This document shows positions 26,281-64,000 of a DNA stretch of 64,000 nt, one piece after another; the first letter of the stretch is position 1, and each line of letters begins with the position of its first letter. The stretch lies in the NCBI RefSeq assembly GCF_900465355.1, contig NZ_LS483254.1, positions 1,240,001-1,304,000 of the forward strand, in the 5' to 3' direction. The notes under the pieces were generated by a model, which was not told where the DNA came from, did not search any database, and saw only the letters and a program-made list of their open reading frames with translations. The stretch comes from Candidatus Bipolaricaulis anaerobius (GTDB lineage: Bacteria; Bipolaricaulota; Bipolaricaulia; Bipolaricaulales; Bipolaricaulaceae). The translations under genes and the position numbers were made by a program.

Positions 26281-26880
26281 TCACCTCCCCGTGCCCGTCA
26301 TGTAGAACGGGTAGAGACAGCACGGGTCACAGCACGGATCGCAACACGGCCCACAGGTCGGAATCGGAGAGAGCTTCAGGTGGATATTGCAAATGGGGAC
26401 TCCACAGGGTTTGGACGGCCGCGTGCAGAGAAGAGAGCGGCAATCCGCCCTGTCCACAAGCTTAATGTAGGTCTGCACGTCACCTTGATCGGTGGTGCTC
26501 ACCACGATCCGGTAGAACCCCGCCGCCGCTTGGCTCCCCGCGGAGGTCTTCTGGTCCCACACGATCTTCGTATCCACGCTCACCGGGTTGGGATAGGTGT
26601 GCTCGTACACCACGCCCCCCAGAAACGCTTCCACCCTCCACCCGCTGATCTGGGTTGTGATCGGACAGCAACAGGAGCAGAGCCGGCCTTGCGGGACGAT
26701 CACCTCGATGAGAATCGCCTCCCCCAACCAGAACCCCTCGTAACAGGAGGGCTCAGGGGAAGGAGAAGGGCAACATGGGGGCGGAGGGCAACACGAAGGC
26801 GGAGGACAACAGGACTGCCCCCACGCCAGCCCGGCCCCCAGCACCAGGACCGCCGCAATCATGACCGCCACCCGCTTCAT
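26281..26880 (-). CDS. Secreted Cys/Pro-rich protein with FlgD/Ig-like domain
   Basis: The 199-residue protein starts at ATG 26880 after GGAGGT, with a signal peptide (MKRVAVMIAAVLVLGAGLAWG). Next comes a CCPPP repeat stretch (QSCCPPPSCCPPPPCC), a middle beta domain (residues about 90-150; IVWDQKTSAG, AAAGFYRIVVST, as in FlgD-type Ig folds), and a C-terminal CCDPCCDPCC repeat. More than twenty cysteines imply disulfide cross-linking or metal binding outside the cytoplasm. A long antisense-like frame reaching 27960 shares its C-terminus but covers other genes and is not real. Role unknown; a surface or envelope protein is likely. Confidence 0.7.
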   Translation of the reverse strand: MKRVAVMIAAVLVLGAGLAWGQSCCPPPSCCPPPPCCPSPSPEPSCYEGFWLGEAILIEVIVPQGRLCSCCCPITTQISGWRVEAFLGGVVYEHTYPNPVSVDTKIVWDQKTSAGSQAAAGFYRIVVSTTDQGDVQTYIKLVDRADCRSLLCTRPSKPCGVPICNIHLKLSPIPTCGPCCDPCCDPCCLYPFYMTGTGR

Positions 26881-62057: not shown

Positions 62058-62532
62058 GGCGGCCCTGTTCGTGGCCGACCGGCCGCTATCCCTTGCGCGG
62101 CTGGCGGAGGCGCTGCGCCTCTCCGAGGAAGCGGTGGGCCGGCTGATCCAGACCCTGGCCGACGAGTACGCCGCCCCGGATCGGGGGATGGAGCTCGGGC
62201 ACGAGGGCGGGGGGTACGTGCTGCGGGTGAAGGGCGAGCTCGCCTCCATCGTCCGGCCGTTCGCTCCCCACCAGGACATCCCCGAACAAACCCTGCGCAC
62301 CCTCGCCGTGATCGCCTACCATGCGCCGGTGCTCCAGTCCCAGGTCGTCAAGATGCGCGGCCAGCGCGCCTACGGCCACATCGGGGAGCTCGTTGCCCGC
62401 GGGTTCGTGGAGGCGCGGGACCAGGGGCCGACAAAGCTCCTCACCGTGACCCCCACGCTCTTGTCCTACTTCGGCGCCTCCTCCCTCGACGAGCTGCGGG
62501 CCCAACTCGGCCCGGCTCCTTCCCCCGACTAA
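62035..62532 (+). CDS. scpB: Segregation and condensation protein ScpB
   Basis: The 165-residue protein has two winged helices: ALVEAALFVADRPLSLARLAEAL and LRTLAVIAYHAPVLQSQVVKMRGQRAYGHIGELVARGFVE, and TPTLLSYFGASSLDEL at the end. It overlaps scpA by 23 nt and completes the condensin operon. Slightly shorter than usual. Confidence 0.95.
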   Translation: MEAKALVEAALFVADRPLSLARLAEALRLSEEAVGRLIQTLADEYAAPDRGMELGHEGGGYVLRVKGELASIVRPFAPHQDIPEQTLRTLAVIAYHAPVLQSQVVKMRGQRAYGHIGELVARGFVEARDQGPTKLLTVTPTLLSYFGASSLDELRAQLGPAPSPD

Positions 62533-62590
62533 CGCCTTCCTAACGGTCGAAGATCCTCATCCCGTGCCACGCAGGGCGAGTTCACCCCTC

Positions 62591-62618
62591 TTGACCTGCA
62601 GGAGTGTGGGGATATATT
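62591..62618 (+). promoter_or_regulatory. Promoter TTGACC-16-TATATT
   Basis: A -35 TTGACC (62591-62596) and -10 TATATT (62613-62618) precede a GGAGGGG ribosome-binding site and ATG 62640. It should drive the thioredoxin-like and Cys-rich genes. Confidence 0.7.
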
Positions 62619-62639
62619 GGAATACGTCCGGAGGGGCGT

Positions 62640-63272
62640 ATGGGAGTCCTCACCGTGATCTCAGGTTTGCTCTTGGTTCCCGCGCTTCCCGGGTACACCG
62701 CATCGATCGAGGCTTCGCCTGCTACAACCATCACTCCGGCCGAGCTCACCCGGGGGCGATGGGGCGCCCTCTTCGTGGTAGTCCCTGGTTGCCCGGCGTG
62801 TGTGGAGGCCGTGGCCTGGTTGGGAGAAGCCCAACGGGTGTTTCCTGATCTCGATCTCCTCCTCGTGGGTCCGTGGCGCACCGAGGGACTCGAGGCCCTC
62901 TCCTCTGAGGCTGGACTGGCGTTGCTGGTGGACGAGGGTGGGCGGGTGGGGGTGGCGTGGGGCGTGCGGCGGGCCCCCGCCCTGGTGCTCCTCCTCGACG
63001 GCCGGCCCCAAGGCAGACTCGATTGGCCGTTCACCGAAGACGAGATTGTGCGAGGTCTTGAGGTGCTGGCGGCCGCGCCGCGGGAGGGGCCATGGCAGTT
63101 TCTCGGAGCCGCGGTCCCGTCGGGCGAGGCGCGGATGCTCGCGGGCGACCCCGTCAACCTGGACGAACTCCCGCGACCCCTGCTCGTTCTGTTCTTCAAC
63201 CCGGACTGCCCGCCCTGCTGGGATGCGCTGCCGGGGCTTACCGAGCTGGGCGAGGGCGGAACCGATGAGTGA
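62640..63272 (+). CDS. Exported thioredoxin-fold protein with CPAC and CPPC motifs
   Basis: The 210-residue protein has a signal peptide or anchor (MGVLTVISGLLLVPALPGYTA). Residues about 30-140 form a thioredoxin-like domain: ALFVVVPGCPACVEAVAWL with CPAC near 55-58 and a strand-Pro-strand APALVLLLDG. A second half-domain (RPLLVLFFNPDCPPCWDALPGL, CPPC near 193) ends within 15 residues, so it looks truncated. It precedes a 16-cysteine secreted peptide, suggesting disulfide formation or isomerisation for that peptide. Confidence 0.78.
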   Translation: MGVLTVISGLLLVPALPGYTASIEASPATTITPAELTRGRWGALFVVVPGCPACVEAVAWLGEAQRVFPDLDLLLVGPWRTEGLEALSSEAGLALLVDEGGRVGVAWGVRRAPALVLLLDGRPQGRLDWPFTEDEIVRGLEVLAAAPREGPWQFLGAAVPSGEARMLAGDPVNLDELPRPLLVLFFNPDCPPCWDALPGLTELGEGGTDE

Positions 63273-63293
63273 GAACCTGTGAGGAGGTGCGTG

Positions 63294-63749
63294 ATGCGAG
63301 CGCCGTTGTGGGTGTTGGCGGTGGTGCTGGTCCTCGGGGTCGTTGGTCTGGCGGGTGACGGGAGCGTGCCGTGGCCGGGCACTGCAGGCGGAGGGAAGGG
63401 GGCATTCCAGCCCACCTCAAACATAGAACCGATAGGGCCGATCGAGACTCCCCTGTGGTGGAACTTCGGCTGCTCCTGGCAGTGGCTTGGATCTTGGACC
63501 TACTGCTACTGCTGTTGGGAATGCGAGAGATACGAGGCGTCTCTGCTCTGCACGGCGATTGTCGGGGCAGCCTGCTCAACAGTATGCACCGGTGCTACAG
63601 GGAGCTACGGAGGCTTCCCATGCAGTCTGGGTTGTGCCTTCATCGCCTACGAGCTCTGTAAGGATTGTGTCTCTTGGCGGGAGTGGTGCCCTTACTGCAT
63701 GGACTGCCGCGTGACCGCGTGTCCGACAGGGGCCGCTGTACCGCTCTAG
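63294..63749 (+). CDS. Secreted 16-cysteine peptide precursor (bacteriocin-like?)
   Basis: The 151-residue protein starts at ATG 63294 after GAGGAGGT, with a signal peptide (MRAPLWVLAVVLVLGVVGLAG). A Pro/Gly-rich middle is followed by a Cys-dense C-terminus: CYCCWECERY, LLCTAIVGAACSTVC, FPCSLGCAFIAYELCKDC, CPYCMDC. The pattern recalls halocin-C8-like or other disulfide-rich secreted peptides, but I cannot confirm a family. It lies 21 nt after the thioredoxin-like gene, probably cotranscribed. Confidence 0.7.
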   Translation: MRAPLWVLAVVLVLGVVGLAGDGSVPWPGTAGGGKGAFQPTSNIEPIGPIETPLWWNFGCSWQWLGSWTYCYCCWECERYEASLLCTAIVGAACSTVCTGATGSYGGFPCSLGCAFIAYELCKDCVSWREWCPYCMDCRVTACPTGAAVPL

Positions 63750-63801
63750 GCTTCCATCTCAAGGATCAACAGGAAGGAGATGGGTCTCGGGAGAGGACAA
63801 G

Positions 63802-64000
63802 ATGGCACGTAGGCGAATCGCCGAGTTCGCGATTTGGACAGCCGGCGCAGCTACGCTAGGACTTCTTCCTTCGTTTGCGCTGCCAAGCCGTCTTGGACAG
63901 ACTTTCCTGGTCTGCCTCGGGGTCGAAGGCTGTATCAGCGCTTACCGCACGATTCGCGCTGTCAGAGGCTACTGGCGACCTGCAGCCACCGTGATCTTAG
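63802..64000 (+). CDS. Start of a membrane protein (3' end outside window)
   Basis: From ATG 63802, 66 codons are visible (MARRRIAEFAIWTAGAATLG...). Two hydrophobic stretches (TAGAATLGLLPSFAL, TFLVCLGVEGCISAY) suggest membrane helices after a basic N-terminus. GGGAGAGG precedes it. It may be the transport or immunity partner of the Cys-rich peptide. Not recognised. Confidence 0.45.
   Translation, partial: MARRRIAEFAIWTAGAATLGLLPSFALPSRLGQTFLVCLGVEGCISAYRTIRAVRGYWRPAATVIL

Follow-up and report, generated by a model that had tools for sequence, protein, structure and literature searches.

A shared leader cassette, exchangeable cysteine-rich bodies and a tandem thioredoxin in one family of Bipolaricaulota: a possible modular system of secreted proteins

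Conotoxin superfamilies combine a conserved signal sequence with a hypervariable, cysteine-rich mature part. The bacteriocin operons of pediocin PA-1 and sublancin include a dedicated thiol-disulfide oxidoreductase, PedC and BdbB, respectively (PMC4919988, PMC6391423). Polymorphic toxins and orphan immunity arrays are represented by the T6SS arrays of Vibrio cholerae (PMC5361080) and by T7SS immunity genes (PMC9484751). The VARTIG modules of Thermococcales are lineage-restricted, recombining, hypervariable, exported and built from Ig domains (PMC8416519). The system analyzed here works somewhat like dedicated-oxidoreductase bacteriocins, polymorphic toxins and VARTIG, and meets the full definition of none of them. 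It was studied from one of its loci, which lies at the end of a stretch of 64,000 nucleotides (the window; positions 1240001-1304000 of a 1.32-Mb single-contig genome, G000). We propose that the window carries one unit of a modular system of secreted proteins that belongs to a single family of Bipolaricaulota, and for this reading, including export, cystine formation and antagonism as set out below, we estimate a probability of about 0.45.

Three open reading frames that had been reported in a first-pass annotation of the window were recovered, i.e. an exported thioredoxin-like protein, an exported protein with 16 cysteines and a small hydrophobic protein. For the TlpA-like exported protein (62640-63272, plus strand, 210 aa), the open reading frame list starts at a GTG at 62604, whereas alignment with relatives places the homologous and best start at the ATG at 62640, with the stop at 63272. 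The promoter claimed for the unit was located by a consensus scan as a sigma-70-like site, TTGACC-N16-TATATT (62591-62618, plus strand), upstream of this gene; two promoter-like sites were found in the stretch versus 0.3 expected, and G001 has a TTGACA promoter-like site at the corresponding place. The cysteine-rich gene (63294-63749, plus strand) starts at an ATG at 63294, 21 bp past the thioredoxin stop (GTG 63279 is an alternative), and encodes 151 aa. It is preceded by an AGGAGG ribosome-binding site, in line with the good ribosome-binding sites described before. After residue 28 the protein contains 16 Cys, 8 Trp and 6 Tyr, and all 16 Cys lie within the last 92 residues, in agreement with the clustering near the C-terminus of a secreted precursor that had been noticed earlier. 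The third gene encodes an 84-aa hydrophobic, probably membrane protein (63802-64056, plus strand) and crosses the window edge at 64000; reading the sequence past this edge, as had been suggested, completed it. Its matches elsewhere are weak and partial (best other E=0.0019), and it is tied to the unit by position alone and is without a clear homologue. Throughout, signal peptides and membrane spans were assigned by reading the sequence, without a dedicated predictor. An Rfam scan of the window returned no RNA families. A phage origin was rejected on a search of viral_contigs, which gave no relatives of the thioredoxin-like protein.

Full-length relatives of the thioredoxin-like protein comprise about 290-313 aa and contain two thioredoxin modules, each of which has a cis-Pro. 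The cysteine motif is GCPAC in the first module (SCPVC in G001) and CPPC or CAPC in the second. The window protein had been described as an exported thioredoxin-fold protein with CPAC and CPPC, and both motifs as well as an N-terminal hydrophobic segment are indeed present. Its domain 1 is complete, with GCPAC and the RAP cis-Pro aligning with the full-length relatives (the fold is assigned from sequence alone). Domain 2, with CPPC, is truncated; it stops after the first helix, the cis-Pro region is gone and about 90 residues are missing. The protein ends with GEGGTDE, an ending of the kind present in the relatives' cassettes, and a recombination event, or a deletion, in the repeated cassette appears to be the best explanation for the damage to domain 2. 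The Pfam AhpC-TSA score is 23.3 bits in the window protein (cut-off 26) versus 34.2 bits in a full-length relative. Over 205 residues the window protein is 84% identical to the G001 thioredoxin, with a dN/dS of 0.34. Genes of the GCPAC type are followed by a leader-bearing cysteine-rich gene in all eight readable cases; no such gene lies behind tandem thioredoxins that are more distantly related, among them those whose first CXXC is broken. The conserved gene order supports the earlier idea of a disulfide-rich system served by a thioredoxin-like factor of its own, whereas the 16-Cys body is not conserved. The complete genome G009 contains two open cysteine-rich genes and no GCPAC-type thioredoxin gene, and thus, the thioredoxin helper is not obligatory.

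A profile built from residues 1-28 was searched in 100 genomes of the class. It yielded 19 clear matches (E<=2.4e-6) in nine of the 100 genomes, all in the window's own family and distributed over four genera, and one additional, divergent match in G022. About 20 genes share a predicted signal peptide and the DGSVxWP motif; in the clear members, the signal peptide is followed by DGSV or a close variant and usually by WP. The conserved 5' cassette of the window (63234-63377, plus strand) spans the end of the TlpA-like gene (GEGGTDE), the ribosome-binding site, the signal peptide and DGSVPWP, and matches the profile with E=2.8e-13. Attached to this one leader are about 13 unrelated Cys/Trp/Tyr-rich body types, between which, outside types A and B, matches are weak. 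Type A was found in G001, G003, G005, G010 and, with a frameshift, G009, type B in G001, G003, G005 and G009, and the remaining types, including the 16-Cys body of the window, are singletons. Within types A and B, dN/dS between species ranges from 0.14 to 0.57, the near-identical G001-G003 pair apart, which argues that both are real proteins under purifying selection. The type-B bodies of G003 (L066 8987-9334) and G001 (L063 1746-2093) differ at three residues, and each difference replaces a Cys. Direct homologues of the 16-Cys body were not found, and whole-protein matches are mainly due to the leader. The first-pass annotation had made its proposal depend on conservation of the cysteine-rich gene; it is the leader and the architecture that are conserved, whereas the 16-Cys body is not.

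The extent of the cassette is clearest in the G001 array behind tgt. Its four cysteine-rich genes have 5' cassettes of 173-286 bp that are up to 96-98% identical and include remnants of the 3' end of the thioredoxin-like gene, the ribosome-binding site and the leader. When the DNA was anchored at the start codons, identity was 79-100% per comparison window across codons 1-28 and dropped to 17-40%, the level of chance, in the next 30 bases, so that the homology ends right after codon 28. A WD40 gene in this array carries a diverged copy of the cassette's upstream part. G009 contains two cassettes that are separated by about 586 kb and have the same altered start and different bodies. The arrays of G001 (L063 1-7100) and G003 (L066, L114) are 98-99% identical versus 86% in the tgt-side flank, which points to a recent exchange; bin contamination or a misplaced contig is the alternative.

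The composition of the bodies sets them apart from the other proteins of the window. Well-scored window genes have a mean of 0.68% Cys, and their richest 100-aa stretch contains only 5 Cys, showing that 16 Cys is far above chance; 2,000 base shuffles of the cysteine-rich gene gave a mean of 6 Cys and a maximum of 14. The bodies contain 11.6% Cys, 6.4% Trp and 6.0% Tyr, compared to 0.7%, 1.7% and 2.8% in the window genes. No Cys spacing is common to all bodies; the spacing itself varies from body to body. The bodies that were compared with Pfam, NCBIfam, PADLOC and PDB sequences gave no family match. A known defence protein was rejected, as PADLOC gave no significant matches. The predicted structure of body type A (pLDDT 62) had no fold match. 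Searches for a toxin domain, a transporter or a protease in the system found none, and a search of the available literature on Cys-rich proteins in Bipolaricaulota found nothing. The window encodes a further exported Cys-rich protein (26281-26880, minus strand; 199 aa, 22 Cys in CC and CCPPP repeats), which does not have the DGSV leader.

The genes downstream of the bodies are not uniform; types A and B each keep a partner of their own across loci. Behind type A lies ExpY, which is exported and has about 255 aa (G003, G005, G009, G010, G007), and ExpY adjoins type A in five of five cases in the genus. Type B is followed by ExpX of about 269 aa (G001, G003, G005, G009), and with the type-B remnants near ExpX in G000 and G006, ExpX is present in six of six genomes with type B or a remnant of it. 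Downstream of other bodies, the genes often encode exported WD40 propellers (G001, G010, G027, G009). Several of these propellers (L029 7870-8958, L030 2521-3570, L063 ~3240 on the minus strand) start with a CPPxxPxxYC-like motif that is similar to the start of type A, CPPGTxYHC. Behind the cysteine-rich gene of L115 (G019) lies the frame of an exported beta-propeller, BNR-like as judged by eye. Both cysteine-rich loci of G009 (L060 12117-12521, L061 6666-7070) include a small hydrophobic protein of about 134 aa, possibly a counterpart of the 84-aa protein of the window. Pfam gave no match for the bodies searched and ExpY, and nothing but sub-cut-off noise for ExpX; a LolA/LolB-like fold of ExpX was considered and dropped (pLDDT 46, best fold matches E ~0.03, TM ~0.2). 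An open partner stands next to a body that is broken or doubtful in G000, G007, G009 and G005, while in G006 both genes are broken. Such open partners resemble orphan immunity genes, and by analogy, the downstream partner, i.e. the 84-aa protein here and other exported proteins elsewhere, could be a putative immunity protein. With about 250-360 aa, ExpX, ExpY and the propellers are large for immunity proteins.

Several features can be read directly from the sequences: the order of the genes, one leader attached to bodies that are not related to each other, duplication in arrays, the sharing of cassettes, purifying selection (types A and B), and the co-occurrence of partners and bodies. The best reading is that of secreted, probably cystine-stabilised proteins that are diversified by recombination at the leader cassette and perhaps form toxin/partner pairs. 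We propose that the promoter would drive the exported tandem-thioredoxin (TlpA-like) protein, and that the conserved cassette, with its ribosome-binding site, Sec-type signal peptide and DGSVxWP at the predicted mature N-terminus, would be fused to a changeable body, with the partner behind it. The body would be exported, and its cysteines would probably form disulfides, aided by the thioredoxin-like protein. Recombination at the leader cassette would attach new bodies, which may target other cells or surfaces, with antagonism among relatives as the most likely role, and the partner may act as an immunity or binding protein. The decay of several units counts against this explanation, as do the missing toxin domain, transporter and protease, the G009 genes without a helper, the size of the partners and a VKOR search of G000-G008 that gave no match. 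A bolder version, to which we give slightly less credence, is that of a venom-style bacterial family, in which a leader cassette recombines with open-ended cystine-rich effectors that have their own partners and a dedicated tandem thioredoxin, and which spreads between relatives as small islands.

The window unit belongs to an island of 3.17 kb that is flanked by scpB and rpsI, begins at 62509 (62509-64000 in the window) and runs to about 65682. G007 does not contain this island, and its flanks, 96% identical to those of G000 (blastn), are nearly adjacent. Among 12 congeners, genes are present at the intact scpB-rpsI site in G000 and G001 only, and the copies examined in G002-G011 have none; in G005, a further, separate fragment of scpB on contig 157 adjoins a unit. 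The G001 island at the same site contains a transposase, the 84% identical thioredoxin-like gene, a different body and WD40 partners, so that the two islands have similar thioredoxins and unlike bodies and partners. In a simple pairwise estimate between G000 and G001, dS is 0.26 for the thioredoxin-like gene versus 0.62 for scpB, and the lower value of the former fits horizontal exchange. The island's open reading frames include no transporter, neither of the ABC type nor of another kind as envisaged for the unit. The absence of the genes from most congeners, with clean empty sites, would be odd for a structural part, and it speaks against the view that the bodies are structural or adhesive components of the envelope (e.g. 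a cystine-crosslinked coat or a prostheca surface), varied under pressure by phages or grazers, with the partners as envelope binders. Exported Cys/Trp/Tyr-rich proteins and exported beta-propellers would suit surface assembly, and a relative, Ca. Bipolaricaulis, has bipolar prosthecae, with pili and adhesins searched for and not found (PMC6092417). Nevertheless, body and partner are replaced jointly, and the bodies are small and present in few copies, so that we regard an envelope role as unlikely.

The state of the window copy raises the question of whether it is a dying remnant, with a broken thioredoxin-like gene, a leaderless fragment of a second unit and a 16-Cys frame without function. 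Besides the truncated domain 2, several findings agree with this. Just past 64000, all that is left of a second unit is a type-B fragment that has no leader and is fused to the terminal part of another TlpA-like gene, with an open ExpX behind it; L003 3136-3420, which had been considered a second cysteine-rich gene, is this fusion. Behind tgt in G000 (L004 4646-5758), a second copy is decayed: its TlpA-like gene is frameshifted, and its ExpY has decayed as well. This ExpY accounts for L004 5402-5758, a rejected candidate for a leader-bearing remnant. Codon usage is atypical. The window copy thus looks partly decayed. However, its 16-Cys frame is intact, i.e. open and equipped with the leader, the ribosome-binding site and all Cys, and the low dN/dS of the remaining thioredoxin part versus G001 argues against loss of function. 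We consider a functionless remnant rather improbable, and it would concern the window genome alone and not the family. Least plausible is a role of the bodies in metal binding or in electron transport outside the membrane, with the thioredoxin-like protein keeping their thiols reduced: the CXXC, CC and CXC spacings of the window protein, the anaerobic lineage and a search of G000-G008 that found no VKOR while DsbD_TM-like proteins exist in these genomes (some just under the family cut-off) would fit, but the missing common Cys spacing, the scarcity of His (1.3%), the high Trp and Tyr content and the lack of a library family match make this very doubtful.

If the reading as recombining, secreted cystine-rich proteins is true, such proteins would be made and reshuffled, together with a thioredoxin dedicated to them, in an anaerobic lineage of a phylum that is dominated by uncultured members and has very small genomes. 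The defined leader could be used to find further members, ready body/partner pairs would be at hand, and the family would be a natural example, in bacteria, of domain swapping at the signal peptide.

The comparison with known systems shows both likenesses and differences. As in the dedicated-oxidoreductase bacteriocins, a small Cys-containing product, here predicted to be secreted, is encoded next to a thioredoxin-like protein and to what may be an immunity protein. In contrast to them, a Sec-type signal peptide is predicted, the island has no ABC transporter, the products comprise 90-150 aa with 6-16 Cys, many unrelated bodies use one leader, and the exported partners are large. The thioredoxin-like protein is related to TlpA/ResA/DsbE-type periplasmic thioredoxins in that domain 2 of its full-length relatives matches ResA- and DsbE-type PDB chains; it differs from them by two tandem domains, the first with GCPAC, and by its link to a Cys-rich gene. 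The pattern of a shared signal and a variable Cys-rich part recalls conotoxins by analogy only, as the proteins are bacterial, not homologous, and differ in Cys spacing between bodies. In polymorphic toxins, too, a constant N-terminus is joined to a variable C-terminus, partners track the variable part and are left behind next to broken bodies; here, however, the constant part is only a signal peptide and a seven-residue motif, Pfam, NCBIfam and PADLOC revealed no toxin domain, and there is no known secretion machinery. VARTIG differs from the present system, which has Cys-rich bodies without a Pfam Ig match and a thioredoxin-like helper, and yet both are lineage-restricted, recombining, hypervariable exported modules.
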